Part shown: positions 956 through 21,365 of the stretch, one piece after another
Layout of the letters: the number at the start of each line of letters is the position of its first letter
How positions within the stretch are numbered: position 1 is the first letter of the stretch
Assembly: GCA_937922785.1 (NCBI GenBank)
Contig: CALAJQ010000042.1
Coordinates: 1-40,789, forward strand
Direction: 5' to 3'
Length of the DNA stretch: 40,789 nucleotides
DNA from: an uncultured Acidimicrobiales bacterium
Lineage (GTDB): Bacteria > Actinomycetota > Acidimicrobiia > Acidimicrobiales > SZUA-35
Position numbers and translations under genes: made by a program
The notes under the pieces: model-generated
The model's database searches: none
Told to the model about the DNA's origin: nothing
The model's input: only the letters and a program-made list of their open reading frames with translations

Positions 956-2140
956 ATGGTTTCCAAGCTCTCGATCTCCCAAGCCCGGCGATTGGCCCTC
1001 GGTGCCCAGGGGTTCGCCAAAGCTCGTCCAGCCAAGGTTGATCGCCGCCACCTGAGAGCGGTGATGGAACGCTTGCGGATTCTCCAGATGGACACCATTC
1101 CCGTGATCTGCCGCCCTCAACAGTTGGTGCCGTTCTCACGACTGGGCCCCTACGACGAGGCTCTGTTCGAAAAGATCGCCTACAAAGACGACGAATGGTT
1201 CGAGTCTTGGGCTCACGAGGCCGCACTTATTCCTGTCGCTGACGAACCGCTACTGCGCTGGCGCCAAGAAGAGATGTCGGGCAAAGGACACTGGTCAGCC
1301 GCAGGCAGCGACGAGTATGTCAACTCCGTACTGGCCGAGCTGGATGAACGAGGCCCTCTTCTGGCTAAGCAACTTGAAGATCCTGGAACCAAGGTTGGAG
1401 TCGACCACGCTTGGGGCGGACGCTCCCAAGGCCGGCTTGCACTAGGCCGACTGTTTGCGGTTGGGAAAGCCGGGTCACGCCGGGTTGGCAACTTCGAACG
1501 GCAATACGACACGATTGAACGAATTGTTCCGGCCGAGATTCTGAATCAGCCGACGCCCGATGTTGCTGACGCCCACCGTGATCTGCTTAGAAGATCGGCC
1601 GCGGCTCTTGGCGTGGGGACCATTGATGACATCGCCGACTACTACCGCATCCGGGTCCCTGCAGCCAGGCCCAGAATTGCCGAGCTGGTAGAGGACGGGT
1701 CGCTTGTGCCGGTAGAGGTCGAAGGGTGGGACAAGCCAGCGTTCCGCAGCGCCGGATCGAAGCTGCCACGTGCAGTTAGTGCGTCGGCTTTGCTCTCGCC
1801 TTTCGATCCCTTGATCTGGCATCGGGCAAGATGTGAGCGCCTGTTCGACTTCTTTTACCGCATCGAGATTTACGTGCCCGAGGCCAAGCGCCAGTTCGGC
1901 TACTACGTACTCCCCTACCTCCATGGTGATCGCCTAGTTGGGCGGGTTGATGTGAAAGCTGATCGCAAGAAGGGCGTGTTGTTAGTTAAGGGCGCCTGGC
2001 ATGAGGATCATGCTGACCCGGATGAGATCGCAAATGGGCTAGCCCAGGAGTTATCCGAGCTAGCCCATTTCCAAAAGCTTGATTCAGTTGAAGTAGCCAG
2101 CAAGGGCAACCTTGCCAGCTCGCTATCATCCAACCTCTAG
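956..2140 (+). CDS. Winged-helix DNA glycosylase, YcaQ/AlkX family
   Basis: A 394-residue protein of the HTH_42 / AlkZ-like group, whose E. coli member YcaQ (AlkX) unhooks interstrand crosslinks and removes N7-alkyl adducts. The family catalytic triplet is visible as Q44-M45-D46 (QxD, the YcaQ form; the Streptomyces AlkZ form is QxQ). It sits in the block LRILQMDTIPV, followed by the HEA-containing stretch WAHEAALIPV typical of the family. Length matches YcaQ (about 400). The ATG at 956 is the first plausible start. No strong Shine-Dalgarno is seen, so it may be expressed from the acyltransferase mRNA. A 12-bp perfect inverted repeat lies inside the 3' end of the gene (2032-2070). Confidence 0.85.
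   Translation: MVSKLSISQARRLALGAQGFAKARPAKVDRRHLRAVMERLRILQMDTIPVICRPQQLVPFSRLGPYDEALFEKIAYKDDEWFESWAHEAALIPVADEPLLRWRQEEMSGKGHWSAAGSDEYVNSVLAELDERGPLLAKQLEDPGTKVGVDHAWGGRSQGRLALGRLFAVGKAGSRRVGNFERQYDTIERIVPAEILNQPTPDVADAHRDLLRRSAAALGVGTIDDIADYYRIRVPAARPRIAELVEDGSLVPVEVEGWDKPAFRSAGSKLPRAVSASALLSPFDPLIWHRARCERLFDFFYRIEIYVPEAKRQFGYYVLPYLHGDRLVGRVDVKADRKKGVLLVKGAWHEDHADPDEIANGLAQELSELAHFQKLDSVEVASKGNLASSLSSNL
2032..2070. repeat. 12-bp perfect inverted repeat inside the ycaQ-like gene
   Basis: The arms at 2032-2043 (AAATGGGCTAGC) and 2059-2070 are exact reverse complements, separated by 15 nt. The hairpin lies within codons for NGLAQELSELAHF, about 70 bp before the stop. It could slow the ribosome or protect the mRNA 3' end; this is inference. 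Confidence 0.7.
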
Positions 2141-5507: not shown

Positions 5508-6536
5508 ATGAATAAGAAGCGATTGTTCATCGCGCTAGCAGCAGTGTTCTCACTAGTCGCCGCATCATGCGGTGGTGGTGATTCCGACCTTGCTGACGGC
5601 GATGCACCAGACCTACTACGAGTTGCCTACTTCCGTGAGTGGCCAACACCGAACCAGTTCGGCCAAGAAGACGGATCATTCGCCGAAGCCGTTGGCACCG
5701 AGATCGAATGGATTCCGTTCGGTTCCGGTAACGAAATGGCTGAAGCCATGGAAGCTGGAGAAATCGATATCTCCTATTCACAGGGCCTCACTCCCTTCGC
5801 AAACTTCGTAAACAACGGTGCTGACCTGAAGATGGTTGGAATCGCAGTTTCCTACGCCGAAGCCGACAACTGCATCGTCCAGGGCGCTCTCGGAGTGACC
5901 AAGGAGAACGCAGCTGAGACACTTAAGGGCGCAGTGGTTATGACGCCTTTCGGTAACGTGACCCACTTCAAGATGCTTTCAATGATGGAAGAAATCGGTG
6001 TGAACCTTGACGATCTAGAGATCGTTCAGGCAACCGACGGTGGCACAACTGCAGCCGCATTTGAGACCGGCGACATCGACGTAGGTTGCGCCTTCGGCGG
6101 ATCAGTTGTGCGAATGGGCGACGCAGGTGGAGTACCAATCTTTACCGGTGCTGAGCACGAGGCCATTGGCATCCAGACCTATGACATCGTGTCCATCCCA
6201 ACATCATTCGGTGAGCAGTACCCGAAGGTTGTTACTTCTTTCCTACGGGCAACTGAGGACTTCAACCAGGCTTGGAAAGACGATCCTGAAACTCAGAACC
6301 CAGTCATTGCTCAGGCCGCTGGTATGGAAGACGTTGGAAACTTCCTAGCCGGACCACTTTGGTTCGTCTTCCCAACCATCGATGATCAGCTCGGCGCCGA
6401 CTGGATGGGTGGCAACGTTGCCGCAACTATGCAGTCACAGCTTGAAACTTTCGAGCGCCTTGGCCAGATCGACAGCGTTAACGCTGACTTTGCTGGCGCA
6501 ATCGACACTAGCTACCTCGAAGCCGCTAAGGGCTAA
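5508..6536 (+). CDS. tauA: Taurine-type ABC transporter substrate-binding lipoprotein (TauA-like)
   Basis: A 342-residue periplasmic-type solute binder anchored as a lipoprotein: MNKKRL, a hydrophobic core and the lipobox VAASC with C21 as the lipidated residue. The mature N-terminus VAYFREWPTPNQFGQ and the blocks IDISYSQGLTPFANF and VSYAEADNCIVQG resemble TauA-type binders of marine proteobacteria, which deliver taurine or related sulfonates to TauBC. The ATG at 5508 has a purine-rich ribosome site (AGGGGAAGAG, 5491-5500). tauB and tauC follow, separated by a terminator and repeats, the usual arrangement for making more binder than permease. Specificity for taurine is inferred from similarity only; other alkylsulfonates or nitrogen compounds are possible. 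Confidence 0.82.
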   Translation: MNKKRLFIALAAVFSLVAASCGGGDSDLADGDAPDLLRVAYFREWPTPNQFGQEDGSFAEAVGTEIEWIPFGSGNEMAEAMEAGEIDISYSQGLTPFANFVNNGADLKMVGIAVSYAEADNCIVQGALGVTKENAAETLKGAVVMTPFGNVTHFKMLSMMEEIGVNLDDLEIVQATDGGTTAAAFETGDIDVGCAFGGSVVRMGDAGGVPIFTGAEHEAIGIQTYDIVSIPTSFGEQYPKVVTSFLRATEDFNQAWKDDPETQNPVIAQAAGMEDVGNFLAGPLWFVFPTIDDQLGADWMGGNVAATMQSQLETFERLGQIDSVNADFAGAIDTSYLEAAKG

Positions 6537-16177: not shown

Positions 16178-17401
16178 ATGGCTGAAGCACTGATCATTGA
16201 CGCATGTCGGACACCGCGGGGAATTGGGAAGCAGGGCAAAGGCGCTCTTTCTCACCTCCACCCGCAACACCTCGGCTCAACCGTTCTTAAAGCGCTTCAG
16301 GAACGCAACGGCTTCGACACGGCCGAAGTCGATGACGTGATCTGGGGAACTTCAGCCCAGGTACAAGGCCAGTCCGGAGACCTCGGCCGGATGTCAGCAC
16401 TTGACGCTGGCTATGACGTTAAAGCCAGCGGCGTCACACTTGACCGGTTCTGCGGTTCCGGAATCACCGCAACAAACTTTGCTGCCAACGCTGTGATGGC
16501 GGGCATGGAGGATCTTGTAATAGCTGGCGGTACCGAGATGATGTCGATGCCCAAGAAGGGCCTGTATCCGATAGGCGGAAACAATCCGCATTTGGAAGAG
16601 CTTCATCCACAACCCCATCAGGGGGTCTGCGCCGATGCGATTGCCACGCTCGAAGGCATACCTCGCGAGGCGCTGGATGCCCACGCCGCCGAATCTCAAG
16701 CCCGAGCTGACCGTGCAATCAAAGAAGGCCGGTTCGACCGAAGCCTGATTCCCGTTTACAACCTGGACGGATCGCTAGCGCTGGACCACGAAGAGTTCCC
16801 TCGGCCTGGAACTACAGCGGAGAAGTTGGCGAGCCTGTCCCCCAGCTTTGAACAAGTAGCCGACTACCGCCATGACGATGACAGTTCAACTTTCCGTGAA
16901 CGAGTTGCCGCCAAGTTCCCTGATCTGCAGATCGAGCATGTCCATCACGCGGGCAACAGCTCGGGCGTTGTTGATGGCTCGGCCGCAATCTTGTTGGCCA
17001 GTGAGTCCTACGCTTCAGCCAACGGCCTAAAGCCACGAGGCCGCATCGTCGCCACTGCAAACATGGGCGACAACCCAACATTGATGTTGAACGCTCCTGT
17101 ACCGGCGGCCAAGAAGGTTCTGGCTCGGGCTGGCTTGACTATCGACGACATAGACATCTTTGAGATCAACGAGGCGTTTGCGGTGGTGTCTGAGAAGTTC
17201 CAGCGTGACCTCGAGCTAGACCGCACCAAAGTAAACGTAAACGGCGGCGCGATGGCCCTAGGCCATCCGATTGGAGCCACAGGAGCCATCTTGATCGGCA
17301 CCGTTCTGGATGAGCTAGAGCGAAGCGGCGGCCGATATGGCCTAATCACAATGTGTGCCGGCGGAGGAATGGCCCCAGCCATAGTCATCGAAAAGCTCTA
17401 A
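16178..17401 (+). CDS. Acetyl-CoA C-acyltransferase (thiolase)
   Basis: A 407-residue thiolase that cleaves 3-ketoacyl-CoA with CoA at the end of a beta-oxidation cycle, or condenses in reverse. The nucleophile is C92 in DRFCGSGI. The histidine is H363 in GHPIGATGA, and the second cysteine C393 in MCAGGGMAPA. The substrate loop contains GDNPTLMLNAPVPAAKKVL and the NEAFA motif is present (EINEAFAVVS). It lies downstream of the ligase/kinase/dehydrogenase group and is the natural last enzyme of that pathway. The last bases of the gene are duplicated 61 bp downstream. Confidence 0.93.
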   Translation: MAEALIIDACRTPRGIGKQGKGALSHLHPQHLGSTVLKALQERNGFDTAEVDDVIWGTSAQVQGQSGDLGRMSALDAGYDVKASGVTLDRFCGSGITATNFAANAVMAGMEDLVIAGGTEMMSMPKKGLYPIGGNNPHLEELHPQPHQGVCADAIATLEGIPREALDAHAAESQARADRAIKEGRFDRSLIPVYNLDGSLALDHEEFPRPGTTAEKLASLSPSFEQVADYRHDDDSSTFRERVAAKFPDLQIEHVHHAGNSSGVVDGSAAILLASESYASANGLKPRGRIVATANMGDNPTLMLNAPVPAAKKVLARAGLTIDDIDIFEINEAFAVVSEKFQRDLELDRTKVNVNGGAMALGHPIGATGAILIGTVLDELERSGGRYGLITMCAGGGMAPAIVIEKL

Positions 17402-17474
17402 CACGCCGTTCCCCGGCCACGGAGGCCGCCCGACCAAAGCGATCCCGGTCGAAAAGCTCTAACACGCCGTTCCC
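17388..17474. repeat. 61-bp-offset direct duplication of the thiolase 3' end
   Basis: The 26 bases at 17388-17413, which include the last codons and the stop of the thiolase, recur exactly at 17449-17474. The copy no longer encodes anything. The intervening segment carries the 29-bp dispersed repeat. This looks like a tandem duplication by slippage or short-homology recombination. Confidence 0.85.
17405..17433. repeat. 29-bp dispersed repeat copy 2
   Basis: Exact reverse complement of 2169-2197, 15 kb away. As in copy 1 it begins within a few bases of a stop codon and contains the CGGCC/GGCCG mini-hairpin. Confidence 0.75.
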
Positions 17475-17544
17475 TGGCAACCCGTATTCTGACCTGGCAG
17501 GCAGCCAAAAATCTGATTCTGACCGCTCAAACAGCCGCTTTTGG

Positions 17545-17566
17545 CTGGCTACACCGCCAGAACGAA
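17545..17566. repeat. Copy of the 22-nt hairpin repeat
   Basis: Exact reverse complement of 11519-11540. It contains the palindrome CTGGCTACACCGCCAG and lies just beyond the terminator of the minus-strand small RNA. Partial relatives (CCTGGCAACCC, CCTGGCAGGCAGCC) precede it at about 17471-17506. Confidence 0.75.
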
Positions 17567-17576
17567 TAAAGTCAGC

Positions 17577-17612
17577 AAAAAGATAGAAACCGACCTCGAT
17601 GAGGTCGGTTTC
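17577..17612 (-). terminator. Rho-independent terminator of the 6C-type RNA
   Basis: A perfect 12-bp stem (GAAACCGACCTC with its complement, 17586-17612) with a 3-nt loop is followed on the minus strand by TATCTTTTT. It fits a minus-strand transcript; on the plus strand the stem is not followed by a T-run. Confidence 0.9.
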
Positions 17613-17712
17613 CGTTGCGAGCACCGGTCTGAAGGGGGGACTTCGCCAGTGCTTCTGATTAGTAACCACCCGAGTTACAAAGGGGGGGACCGAATCCGGG
17701 TGGCTACCTCTT
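17577..17712 (-). ncRNA. 6C-type small RNA
   Basis: A complete small RNA gene of about 136 nt. On the minus strand the expected start is near 17712. Hairpin 1 pairs 17707-17697 with 17672-17662 (11 bp, one G-U) and has a loop with seven consecutive C. Hairpin 2 pairs 17653-17646 with 17627-17620 (8 bp, one G-U) and has a loop with six consecutive C. A rho-independent terminator closes it. Two stem-loops each with six or more C in the loop is the defining design of the actinobacterial 6C RNA motif. Such C-rich loops are thought to pair with G-rich mRNA sites. Both the promoter and the terminator agree with the strand. An overlapping 128-codon minus-strand open frame is judged spurious. Confidence 0.85.
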
Positions 17713-17718
17713 GGTAAC

Positions 17719-17747
17719 ATTATAGACAGGCCGCCGCCATCTGTCCA
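17719..17747 (-). promoter_or_regulatory. Consensus sigma70-type promoter of the 6C-type RNA
   Basis: On the minus strand TGGACA (17747-17742) and a perfect TATAAT (17724-17719) are separated by exactly 17 nt. The predicted start is near 17712, just before hairpin 1. It is the best promoter match in the window. Confidence 0.85.
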
Positions 17748-17787
17748 CCAGTTCGGACAGATGTCACACATCTGCTTGACAGATGGG
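17738..17787. promoter_or_regulatory. Cluster of CAGATG/CATCTG half-sites, probable operator
   Basis: A 9-bp perfect inverted repeat (CATCTGTCC 17738-17746, GGACAGATG 17755-17763) covers the -35 box of the 6C promoter. A second one (CAGATG-tcaca-CATCTG, 17758-17774) overlaps it, and another ACAGATG follows at 17779-17785. The cluster lies between the divergent small RNA and lysR, so a regulator bound here, perhaps LysR itself, could control both. Confidence 0.65.
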
Positions 17788-17805
17788 CCAATCTAGTGTG
17801 ACTAT
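17776..17805 (+). promoter_or_regulatory. Putative lysR promoter
   Basis: TTGACA at 17776-17781 is followed after 18 nt by GACTAT (17800-17805), 5 nt before the ATG at 17811. No ribosome site is seen, so the mRNA is probably leaderless. The -35 box lies inside the CAGATG repeat cluster. Confidence 0.5.
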
Positions 17806-17810
17806 CGAAC

Positions 17811-18740
17811 ATGGACCTGCGTCAACTCCAGGCTTTTGTGGCCGTGATCGACTTCGGAAGCTTCACTTCGGCGGCTCGGGCCCTACATACGGTTCAGTCC
17901 AACATTTCCACCCACGTAGCCCGCCTGGAAACCGAGCTGGGTGCAGTTCTAATTGACCGAGCAACCGGTAAGCCAACACAAGAAGGCGAAGCTGTCCTGG
18001 CTCGAGCGCGCAGGATCGAGAGAGAGTTGGAGGCACTAGAGGCCGACGTCGGATCTCTTTATGGCACCCCGCGAGGCACCGTCAAGATCGGAATTATCGG
18101 TACCACCGCTCGTTGGTGCACGCCGGCTCTGGTCGATCTGATCGCGCAAAGAACACCCGATATTTCTCTAATAATTTCTGACGGAACTACAACTTCGATA
18201 ATCGGCCGCCTACTGAGCGACGCGATCGACATTGGAGTGTCGGCGCTACCAGTCAACGACCCTGAGATTCGTACCACGCCATTGTTTGACGAAGAAGACA
18301 TCGTCATCGCCCCCGCTTCACATCCACTGGCCATGATGGATGTTGTCACCATGGCCGACTTAGCTGACCACCAGTTGCTTATGGCCGCCCCTGGAACCCC
18401 GTTTCGTCAAGAAACTGATGCTGCGTTTGGTGCCGTGGGGCTTCGACCAAGGCCCCAAGTTGAGATTGACGGCATCCGATTGCTTGCATCGTTGGCGTTC
18501 CAGGGCTTTGGAGTAGCAATCGTTCCTGCCACTGCTGCTCCCGGTTGGGTTGGCGGGGATTGGAAACGAATTCGCGTGGACGGGCTGGCTCGCCGCTCGG
18601 TGGGAATTGCTTTGAAGCGCCGCGGACAACCCTCCGCAGCAGTTCAGGCCGCCCTCGAAGTCGTCCGGGACGCCATAAACGCACGAGGAGCCGGTGAGCC
18701 CGGTGTTTCTCTGGTCGGTATCGACGAGATTTCGGGCTAG
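17811..18740 (+). CDS. LysR-family transcriptional regulator
   Basis: A 309-residue DNA-binding regulator. The N-terminal winged helix is clear: MDLRQLQAFVAVIDFGSFTSAA, ALHTVQSNISTHVARLETELGAVLIDR (recognition helix about residues 30-48). It is followed by the linker helix and a two-lobe effector domain (about 90-295). LysR proteins usually bind upstream of their own gene and of a neighbour; the repeated CAGATG sites at 17738-17787 are the obvious place. The carboxyltransferase gene begins 11 bp after the stop, so the two are likely co-transcribed and the enzyme is a possible target. The effector is unknown. Confidence 0.92.
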   Translation: MDLRQLQAFVAVIDFGSFTSAARALHTVQSNISTHVARLETELGAVLIDRATGKPTQEGEAVLARARRIERELEALEADVGSLYGTPRGTVKIGIIGTTARWCTPALVDLIAQRTPDISLIISDGTTTSIIGRLLSDAIDIGVSALPVNDPEIRTTPLFDEEDIVIAPASHPLAMMDVVTMADLADHQLLMAAPGTPFRQETDAAFGAVGLRPRPQVEIDGIRLLASLAFQGFGVAIVPATAAPGWVGGDWKRIRVDGLARRSVGIALKRRGQPSAAVQAALEVVRDAINARGAGEPGVSLVGIDEISG

Positions 18741-18751
18741 AAAGAACCCCA

Positions 18752-20056
18752 ATGACAGCCCGAGTTGAGGTAATCGATGACCGCCGGGTAATGCGGGTGG
18801 AAATAGCAGGGTCGGGTCCGAACGACTCGCTCACTATTGCCGACGGCAACATGCTGGCCGAAGGTGTCCGTCACGGCTTAGAACAACGCCTCCCGATGTT
18901 CATCACCCTCACTTGCTTAGGGCCAACTGTCTCTGAGGGCCTAGGCACCTCCGACGCTTGGGCCAAGGCCGCTGCAGTTCTGGCCTCGGCCTCTGGCGTC
19001 GTTCCGATCTTTTTCGGCGCTACCGGCCCGGTCACATCTGGGCCATCTCTGCTGATAGGCCTGGCCGACATCGTGATCTTCACCGAGGACGCTTTCGCGT
19101 TTGTGTCGGGCCCGATGATGGTCGAGGAGTTCACCGGCGTCCCCGTGTCTTCGGAAGATCTCGGCGGCGCAGGTTCAAGTGCGCGCACCAGTGGCGTCGC
19201 CCACCTCGTCGTACCAGACATCGACAGCGCCGTCGACGCCATGCGGATGCTGTTGGACTACCTTCCTGACAACGTAGACCAGGTCACTCCCCCGATCCCC
19301 ACGACCGATCCGATAGAGCGGTTGACTCCGGAAGCTGGCGCCCTTATTCCAGACCATCCGACCGGTTCATATGACGTGCGCGACGTCATTCGAGAAATCG
19401 CCGACGACGGAGAGTTCTTTGAACTGAGAGCGGGGTTTGCCCCAAACATCGTGGTCGGATTTGCCTCTTTCGGTGGAATCGCGTGCGGTGTGGTCGCCAA
19501 TCAATCCCAAGCACTTGCCGGCGCTATCGATATTCCAGCCAGCCACAAGGGCGCACAGTTTGTTGGCATGTGTGACTCGTTCAACGTTCCGCTCCTCACA
19601 CTTGTTGACACCTCGGGTTTCCTTCCCGGTAAGGACCTCGAATGGCGAGGCATGATCCGTCATGGCGCACAACTTGCTTTCTCCTACGCACGCGCAACAG
19701 TGCCCCGAGTCGGGCTCATCTTGAGGAAGAGTTATGGCGGTGCCTACATCGTTATGGACTCGCGATACATCGGCAATGACGTCATGATGGCGTGGCCGTC
19801 AGCTGAGGTTGCGGTGATGGGGGCAAAGGGCGCAGTTGAGATCTTGCATCGTTCTGCCAGCCCGCAAGAGCGAGAGACATTAGTGGCCGATTATGAGTCC
19901 AAATACCTTTCTCCGTACCCCGCAGCCGAGCGTGGAGCGATTTCTGCAGTAATTGATCCCGCCGATACTCGTCGAATCGTGTCGCAGAACCTCGATTTAT
20001 TGGCTTCCAAGCGGGAAAAGCACCGCTTTAGGCGCCACGACAATATGCCTCTGTAG
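18752..20056 (+). CDS. Acyl-CoA carboxylase carboxyltransferase subunit (short form)
   Basis: A 434-residue protein of the AccD/PccB carboxyltransferase superfamily, which moves CO2 from biotin onto acetyl-, propionyl- or a similar acyl-CoA. The N-half (about 1-185) has the first crotonase-like fold with GATGPVTSGPSLLIGLADIVIF. The C-half has GGIACGVVANQ, the oxyanion segment VDTSGFLPGKDLEWRGMIRHGAQLAFSYA, and SYGGAYIVMDSRYIGNDVMMAWPSAEVAVMGAKGAVEIL, all standard for acyl-CoA carboxylases. It is about 80 residues shorter than PccB (about 510-520) at the N-terminus. No biotin carboxylase or carrier subunit is in the window. The LysR gene is directly upstream. Confidence 0.85.
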   Translation: MTARVEVIDDRRVMRVEIAGSGPNDSLTIADGNMLAEGVRHGLEQRLPMFITLTCLGPTVSEGLGTSDAWAKAAAVLASASGVVPIFFGATGPVTSGPSLLIGLADIVIFTEDAFAFVSGPMMVEEFTGVPVSSEDLGGAGSSARTSGVAHLVVPDIDSAVDAMRMLLDYLPDNVDQVTPPIPTTDPIERLTPEAGALIPDHPTGSYDVRDVIREIADDGEFFELRAGFAPNIVVGFASFGGIACGVVANQSQALAGAIDIPASHKGAQFVGMCDSFNVPLLTLVDTSGFLPGKDLEWRGMIRHGAQLAFSYARATVPRVGLILRKSYGGAYIVMDSRYIGNDVMMAWPSAEVAVMGAKGAVEILHRSASPQERETLVADYESKYLSPYPAAERGAISAVIDPADTRRIVSQNLDLLASKREKHRFRRHDNMPL

Positions 20057-20096: not shown

Positions 20097-21365
20097 GTGT
20101 CTGAATCTGTAACTATCACCGACAACCGCACCGGCGAAACCATCGAAATCCCAATCGAAAACGGTGGTATCAGTGCGAAGGCCTTCTCCAAGCACATGCC
20201 GGGGCTGTGGTTTTATGACCCAGGTTTCACCGCTACAGCGTCTACCTCCAGCGCAATCACATACCTGGACGGTGGCAACGGAGTGCTGCGTTACCGCGGT
20301 TACCCCATTGAACAGCTCGCCGAGAAGTCGACGTTCCTTGAGGTTTGCTATCTGTTGATCAATGGCGAGCTGCCTAGCGCAACCGAGATGGAGACTTGGC
20401 GACACGACATCACCCATCACACGTTCATCCACGAGAATATGCGCAAGCGTTTCACCGAGGGCTTCCACCATGACGCTCACCCGATGGGCATGCTCACTTC
20501 AGCAATTGCGGCTCTTTCCACGTTCTACCCAGAAGCCAAGGACATCTCGGACCCCGAGAACCGAAAGAAGCAGATCAACCGTTTGATCTCCAAGGTTCCG
20601 ACACTTGCAGCGATGGCTTATCGCGCCAGTATCGGCATGCCTTTTGTCTACCCAGACAACACACTCAACTACGCCGAAAACTTCCTTTCGATGATGTGGC
20701 GGGTTGCTGAACCTGTTTACGAAGCAGATCCAGTTCTTTCCAAGGCACTGGACACTTTGCTGATTCTCCACGCCGATCACGAGCAGAACTGTTCAACCAC
20801 AACGATGCGTGTTGTCGGTTCGTCTCATTCAGACCCTTACGTGTCTGCGGCGGCCGCAACTTCGGCCCTTTATGGCCCTCGCCACGGCGGAGCAAACGAG
20901 CAGGTAATCCACATGCTCAACGAGATTGGCTCCTATGAGAACATCCCGGCTTTCATCGAAAAGGTGAAGCAGGGTGATGTACGTCTTATGGGCTTCGGGC
21001 ACCGTGTCTACAAGGCCTATGACCCCCGAGCCACCATCGTTAAAGAGCAGGCAGACAAGGTCTTCGCCGTAACCGGGCGCAGTCCGCTGCTCGACATTGC
21101 TTTGAAGCTTGAAGAGATTGCTCTGGAAGACGATTACTTCAAGAGCCGCAACCTCTACCCGAACGTGGACTTCTACACCGGCCTGATCTACCAGTCGATG
21201 GGTATCCCGATGGACATGTTCACCGTGATGTTCACCATCGGCCGCATGCCGGGCTGGCTGTCACATTGGGAAGAGCTCATGGTTGAAGAACAGCGCATCG
21301 CTCGACCTCGCCAGCTCTACACCGGCCCCGATGAGCGAGACTACGTAGACATCGCTTCGCGCTAA
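20097..21365 (+). CDS. gltA: Citrate synthase
   Basis: A 422-residue enzyme that condenses oxaloacetate and acetyl-CoA to citrate. The catalytic triad is visible: H263 in GPRHGGAN, H302 in GFGHRVYK and D358 in VDFYTG, matching E. coli H264, H305 and D362. The helix HADHEQNCSTTTMRVVGSSHSDPYV is typical of hexameric type II enzymes, and length agrees (about 427). The GTG start is preferred because of the leaderless -10 box. The gene is monocistronic: it lies 40 bp after the carboxyltransferase but with its own promoter, and it converges on a minus-strand operon. Confidence 0.96.
   Translation: MSESVTITDNRTGETIEIPIENGGISAKAFSKHMPGLWFYDPGFTATASTSSAITYLDGGNGVLRYRGYPIEQLAEKSTFLEVCYLLINGELPSATEMETWRHDITHHTFIHENMRKRFTEGFHHDAHPMGMLTSAIAALSTFYPEAKDISDPENRKKQINRLISKVPTLAAMAYRASIGMPFVYPDNTLNYAENFLSMMWRVAEPVYEADPVLSKALDTLLILHADHEQNCSTTTMRVVGSSHSDPYVSAAAATSALYGPRHGGANEQVIHMLNEIGSYENIPAFIEKVKQGDVRLMGFGHRVYKAYDPRATIVKEQADKVFAVTGRSPLLDIALKLEEIALEDDYFKSRNLYPNVDFYTGLIYQSMGIPMDMFTVMFTIGRMPGWLSHWEELMVEEQRIARPRQLYTGPDERDYVDIASR

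Follow-up and report, generated by a model that had tools for sequence, protein, structure and literature searches.

What lies between a thiolase gene and a divergently oriented lysR gene in this Acidimicrobiales genome, and does it belong to a known class of regulatory RNA? A first-pass annotation of the window (i.e. the whole stretch of 40,789 nt analysed here, to which coordinates refer unless another locus is named) had placed a complete small RNA (sRNA) gene of the 6C type there, on the minus strand at 17577-17747, with a promoter, two C-loop hairpins and a terminator.

The coordinates of these parts proved correct in a promoter scan and a minimum free energy (MFE) fold (Table 1). The promoter carries 11 of the 12 consensus letters and is the only such site in 17300-18000, against 0.2 expected from shuffled sequences. 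For the 136 nt between 17712 and 17577, the fold has an MFE of -58.9 kcal/mol, compared with a shuffle mean of -38.6 kcal/mol (sd 3.6; z -5.68), and none of the 200 shuffles was as low. Hairpin 1 comprises 13 outer pairs in the computed fold, among them the 11 bp already reported, and 13 pairs were counted by scan in the terminator stem. As the terminator scan returned one site where 0.9 were expected, it says little alone, and the terminator was accepted because it is conserved in relatives. A 128-aa ORF overlapping the element (17385-17771, minus strand) is probably no gene, since the same region of relatives varies by insertions and deletions and by paired changes in the stems. Between the thiolase gene and the RNA terminator, a 26-base exact direct repeat (17388-17413 and 17449-17474) was also found, in which the thiolase 3' end is copied about 61 bp on.

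Table 1. Features of the sRNA locus and of its conserved neighbourhood (window positions)
Feature	Position	Strand	Remarks
Small RNA	17577-17712	-	Predicted start about 17712, end in T-run; fold z-score, covariation in the family, homologues in the corresponding place of relatives
Predicted sRNA promoter (sigma-70-type)	17719-17747	-	-35 box TGGACA 17747-17742, spacer 17, -10 box TATAAT 17724-17719
Hairpin 1	17661-17708	-	C7 in loop, 17688-17682; MFE fold; covariation helix 1
Hairpin 2	17620-17653	-	C6 in loop, 17639-17634; MFE fold; covariation helix 3
Intrinsic terminator	17577-17613	-	Stem 17613-17585, then ATCTTTTT (T-run); covariation helix 4
Probable LysR operator	17739-17784	-	ATC-N9-GAT at 17770-17784; AACTGGTGGACAGAT in a second site at 17739-17753, which overlaps the -35 box
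LysR-family regulator gene	17811-18740	+	Divergent from the RNA; PF03466, PF00126
Acyl-CoA carboxyltransferase-type gene	18752-20056	+	Conserved neighbour; PF01039; 70 of 80 loci (best 80 of 252)
Citrate synthase gene	20097-21365	+	Conserved neighbour; NF004126 above cut-off; 71 of 80 loci (best 80 of 252)

In the available part of PMC4046766, 6C RNAs are defined as small RNAs with stem-loops bearing about six C each. The window element has two stem-loops of this kind (C7 and C6 in MFE hairpin loops), and together with the promoter and terminator they make up the 6C-type architecture that had been proposed. Membership in the Rfam family, on the other hand, did not hold. The element does not reach the 47 bits of RF01066; the whole window gave no Rfam match at gathering scores, and the 6C model found nothing at E ≤ 10 either in 17400-17850 or in the element's own genome (150 of the 285 first-look candidates scored). 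No Rfam family exceeded its cut-off in the 20 related loci searched (of the best 80 described below), and whole-genome searches of 11 related genomes with the 6C model returned six weak matches (E ≤ 1), all below the cut-off. The label ‘Rfam 6C’ was therefore dropped for the window RNA. This missing match does not refute an sRNA, because covariation within the element's own family supports one.

A plain nucleotide search of 61 genomes gave matches in all of them, mostly short terminator matches; those of L008 and L003 were real. One match in L002 (88% over 34 bases) was rejected as a homologue, as such hairpins are lacking there. In L008, the same C-loop design (fold z -4.37) diverges from a lysR gene that is closely related and is followed by a carboxyltransferase gene. 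A LysR orthologue was present at E ≤ 1e-50 in 31 of the 39 genomes of the window's family. The first alignment contained 28 lysR-upstream regions, i.e. the window and 27 of the 29 fetched loci, two being dropped for their short upstream sequence (L064 and L070). At least one C-run stands in an MFE hairpin loop in all 28 regions, and two or more in 23; in four others the MFE fold pairs the second C-run otherwise (G030, G036, G018 and G005), and the first loop of G006 contains no more than CCC.

Because MAFFT misplaces the hairpins, a seed of four sequences and covariance models were used instead. Model R1, built from these four sequences, matched 25 of 30 lysR loci (window included) at the correct place and strand at E ≤ 1, and 22 at E ≤ 0.01, several of the matches being partial; L044, L047, L049, L064 and L066 were missed, and wrong-strand matches start at E 0.012. 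Covariation was assessed on 18 of 19 chosen sources with an R1 match at E ≤ 0.005, L043 and weaker loci being left out. Both sides had changed in 34 of the 38 pairs, and 94.0% of the 652 cells were standard pairs. The covariation score was 0.609, compared with 0.202 in shuffles, and on none of the five measures did any of 500 shuffles do as well; when the structure was slid by 1-3 columns, 26-45% of cells paired. These figures lean upward, as the alignment was fitted to the structure and contained only good R1 matches, but the gap to the controls is wide. We conclude that the window element is almost certainly a genuine sRNA gene, presumably transcribed from the predicted promoter.

The next model, R2, was searched against 298 genomes of the order (E ≤ 0.01, strict filters, at most 13 candidates scored per genome). 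Matches were obtained in 13 genomes, at one place each, ten of them in the window's family and three in another family (g39); at least two further members of the window's family were left unmatched by this model. In both g39 cases that were read (G163 and G468), the RNA is divergent from a LysR orthologue. No LysR orthologue was detected at E ≤ 1e-50 in any of the five genomes of genus g11, one of which (G010) nonetheless has the RNA. The RNA of that genome (L099, 1501-1598, minus strand) stands right behind a carboxyltransferase gene, like a 3' UTR product.

A broader survey was based on the best 80 of 252 LysR relatives, found from the LysR alignment, with loci cut at contig ends. Sixty-one of the 80 are named Acidimicrobiales, Acidimicrobiia or Acidimicrobiaceae, and the rest include Microthrix, Microthrixaceae, a bin with the label Ferrithrix, the cultured Aquihabitans sp. 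G128, which carries the element (in L182), and phylum- or class-level records. Besides the two neighbours given in Table 1, a HAD-PlsC fusion gene lies on the far side of the RNA, on the RNA strand, in 40 of these best 80 loci, and a thiolase neighbour was found in none of them (tblastn, 1e-10). The genomic place between thiolase and lysR, which had been taken as a hint to the targets, is thus conserved and informative on the LysR side only.

Among the 76 loci with 320 nt of upstream sequence (L122, L130, L152 and L155 being dropped), 62 have a hairpin with at least five C in its loop on the strand divergent from lysR, and 47 of them have at least two such hairpins. The same counts on the lysR strand were 8 and 3 of the 76 loci, an inverted clade (see below) among them, and in 1520 random control windows from the 76 loci they were 11.3% and 1.4%. 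Shuffles that keep C-runs whole (760 in all) had a C-loop hairpin in 62% of cases, so the C-runs carry much of the hairpin signal, and two or more in 25%, a level that the pairs of hairpins clearly exceed. The count of 62 is probably low, because the hairpin finder misses short or interrupted stems (it counts one for the window). A C-run of four was absent within 260 nt upstream of lysR in nine loci (L142, L150, L156, L158, L171, L173, L176, L178 and L179). The RNA thus recurs order-wide, in mostly uncultured actinobacteria, beside one LysR gene, in the conserved divergent arrangement of LysR-activated sRNAs, and belongs to a 6C-like C-loop family, of which no earlier report was found in a literature search of open-licence PMC.

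Could this family consist of true but diverged 6C RNAs, derived from the same ancestral gene as 6C/B11 and doing the same work? In the phylum, a 6C match was found at E ≤ 0.1 in 32 of 296 genomes, 12 of them over the cut-off. A HAD-IB hydrolase gene is divergent from 6C in 11 of the 12 loci over the cut-off (16 of 20 when weaker ones are added), a Ssd-like gene stands beside most 6C loci, Ms1 adjoins 6C in one (L071), and none of the 20 loci has a LysR relative within 1.5 kb of 6C. This layout agrees with the location of the B11 gene between Rv3660 and Rv3661 (PMC12395582, as far as available) and with the link between 6C and Ms1 in a mycobacterial comparison (PMC9569102, in part). The HAD-IB and Ssd-like neighbourhood is absent at the window, where the neighbours are thiolase and LysR. 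HAD-IB genes do adjoin both families, which favours kinship, but in the window's family the HAD-PlsC fusion is codirectional with the RNA, whereas HAD-IB is divergent from 6C. Their presence beside the RNAs of L104-L183 (40 of 80) and beside the 6C RNAs of L071-L090 (16 of 20) may reflect common ancestry or chance.

The structures point both ways as well. The 6C model ends in a C-looped hairpin, and a script found a C-rich loop in the terminator hairpin of 32 of 81 regions. Most of these regions are from outside the family of the window, and the script was wrong in at least one (L104); in the window, the terminator is separate and lacks a C-run. A lax-threshold Rfam search of 10 loci gave four matches on RNAs of the window's family. 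The 6C model matched hairpins 2 and 3 in one of the ten (L145; 33.1 bits with a gathering score of 47, E 1.5), ncS035 matched L157 (651-786, minus strand; E 0.004, 30 of 79 bits), and both FsrA (E 0.036, 30 of 80 bits) and sX13 (E 0.094, 30 of 50 bits) matched L133 (184-296, minus strand). Since ncS035, FsrA and sX13 match these relatives better than 6C does below threshold, the likeness is not specific to 6C, and common ancestry with 6C was rated lower; the resemblance to the three is likely that of look-alikes across phyla. In the reverse direction, model R1 matched none of five 6C loci. Together with the silence of the 6C model in the scored part of the window's genome and in the relatives searched, these results make a diverged 6C origin unlikely, if still the best placed of the alternatives considered here.

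Two further places were noted in the course of these searches. A second triple C-loop element in a Microthrixaceae genome (L229, about 1975-2080, minus strand; 6C 38.9 bits, below the cut-off) stands directly behind an ORF that is phasin-like by eye, with no LysR relative in 4 kb. A weak 6C match in G054 has neither a LysR relative nor a C-loop cluster nearby.

We further analysed the region between lysR and the RNA. The operator 15-mer AACTGTTGGACAGAT scored at least 12 in 46 of 81 regions, compared with 6 of 1620 single-base shuffles, its own conservation being partly circular because it was read off the same sequences. A footprint was read outside this anchor, in the 63 of 81 regions with an anchor score of at least 11 (the 18 below 11 being dropped). 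At -31 to -17 it shows an ATC and a GAT separated by nine bases (95-98%); a further ATC follows at -9 to -7 (89-95%), and the -10 box stands at 29-34 (A 75%, T 83%). The anchor itself contains the -35 box. Conservation of the first ATC is inflated in distant loci because it overlaps the lysR start codon there; it is also present where the lysR start lies further off, window included. LysR-activated promoters typically have a site of the T-N11-A type near -65 and a second site near -35. The same layout is found here, as ATC-N9-GAT is centred at about -66 from the predicted RNA start and the second site overlaps the -35 box. In L126 and L129 the RNA is present and the operator 15-mer scores only 9, as low as in RNA-less loci.

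When the operator pattern by itself (24 fixed letters, at most three mismatches) was searched in 396 genomes of the phylum, it was found in eight, at one site each, while the reversed pattern was found in none; the window operator was recovered with one mismatch. All six sites within the order, two of which were known before the search (the window and G163), are followed by C-loop hairpins, with 96-103 nt from the operator start to the first C-run and LysR on the opposite side. The two sites out of the order have no C loops behind the operator. One is without mismatch, in another order of the same class, beside a LysR homologue of 32% identity (L196, 1501-1546, minus strand), and the other has three mismatches and lies beside another LysR (L197). 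From these results the putative operator is probably a LysR site, as judged from sequence, and its tie to the C-loop RNA applies inside the order.

The operator, the RNA and lysR have not always kept the same arrangement. In genus g8 the element is inverted and lies on the lysR strand; the four inverted loci form one starred clade in the LysR tree, and in the three of them with enough sequence the operator is on the upstream side of the RNA, away from lysR. The nine RNA-less loci require two losses in the same tree. The seven-member loss clade has operator scores of 7-9, i.e. at shuffle level, and in the two-member loss (L142 and L179) a partial operator is kept (scores of 11 and 12).

These rearrangements bear on whether the operator mainly serves lysR autoregulation, the RNA being constitutive, LysR-repressed or a mere neighbour. 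Divergent LysR genes usually autoregulate; moreover, the operator abuts the lysR start in distant loci, L196 has an operator and a LysR gene without C loops, and the partial operators of L142 and L179 persist without the RNA. Against this, the distance from the operator to the RNA promoter is fixed while that to lysR varies, the operator moves with the RNA and away from lysR in the inverted clade, and the seven-member RNA-less clade has no operator. We thus regard this alternative as improbable, slightly more so than a diverged 6C origin. That the RNA is a cis-acting leader or attenuator of the downstream gene on its own strand, as the codirectional HAD-PlsC gene of many relatives and the typing of 6C itself as Cis-reg in Rfam might suggest, is very improbable compared with action in trans, because the RNA has its own promoter, a strong terminator ends it, and the gene behind that terminator differs (the HAD-PlsC fusion, a BKACE-type gene, the convergent thiolase in the window, or lysR in the inverted clade).

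The interpretation we favour, and hold to be probable as a whole, is that of a LysR-activated C-loop sRNA acting in trans. The RNA would be a stand-alone molecule about 135 nt long, and members of its family carry two or three C-rich loops. The divergent LysR would bind the operator between the two genes, at ATC-N9-GAT near -66 and at the second site that overlaps the -35 box, and would switch the RNA promoter on together with a co-inducer; LysR control of the RNA is in itself likely. The exposed UCCCCC loops would then lower the translation of target mRNAs by pairing with their G-rich ribosome sites. Such pairing is proposed by analogy with B11, of which either loop alone is enough to repress eccB4 in M. 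abscessus (PMC10470900, available part) and which acts via its C-rich loop 3 in M. marinum (PMC12395582, available part), and we judge it somewhat likelier to be right than wrong. The recurrence of the acyl-CoA carboxyltransferase and citrate synthase genes as neighbours suggests, as a possible signal, a metabolite of the acetyl-CoA/citrate node.

As regards targets, seed searches in the window's own genome and four relatives gave no clear set. The C-loop complement AAGGGGGGA occurs at six places in the own genome, one being the antisense strand of the RNA itself, compared with three for the reversed control; one of the six stands before a regulator-like start (L185). In four relative genomes, the 9-mer loop complement GAGGGGGAC occurs at 134 places, compared with 92 for the reversed control, and 16 of the 134 are the RNA itself or one tandem repeat. 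Thirty of these places were read, two of which were the RNA, and five had a mechanically possible start within 12 nt; L224 alone among the five, with a lipoprotein-like product, looks like a gene start. Within the window, G-rich ribosome sites (AGGGGA, AGGGGGA and GGGGAGG) precede three consecutive plus-strand ORFs at 5508, 6716 and 7513, the first two of which are taurine-transporter-like (the tauA and tauB of the first-pass annotation), and these sites could pair with the C loops. No G-run was found at the starts of the carboxyltransferase and citrate synthase genes of the window. More tentatively, at somewhat less than even probability, the order-wide sRNA family and its dedicated LysR sensor might form a two-part switch at the acetyl-CoA/citrate node that silences a regulon with G-rich leaders, and the family might be an old sibling of 6C.

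A C-loop RNA that occurs across an order together with a probable activator and operator at the same locus makes both its control and its targets directly testable. As the Rfam 6C model misses this group, C-loop RNAs are probably under-counted in actinobacteria. According to our search of open-licence PMC, an RNA of this kind with a LysR partner dedicated to it would be a new arrangement.

RsaE/RoxS are further sRNAs with C-rich loops. The window family shares such loops with sX13, FsrA and ncS035, which come from other phyla and whose matches all stay far below gathering. With 6C/B11 it has in common a small size and stem-loops of about six C; it differs in having no model match, in its separate terminator without a C-run and in the LysR gene and operator beside it, the neighbours of 6C being HAD-IB, Ssd-like and Ms1 genes. 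In C. glutamicum, a regulator of 6C has been reported, within the GlxR network (PMC4046766, available part). As for the control proposed here, its nearest likeness is to two other systems. OxyR/OxyS and GcvA/GcvB differ from the window family by their unrelated RNAs, hosts and signals, and LysR control is something we infer in the window family. In OxyR/OxyS and GcvA/GcvB, as in the window family, a LysR-family gene is divergent from an sRNA gene and a LysR site, here a probable one, stands at the sRNA promoter.
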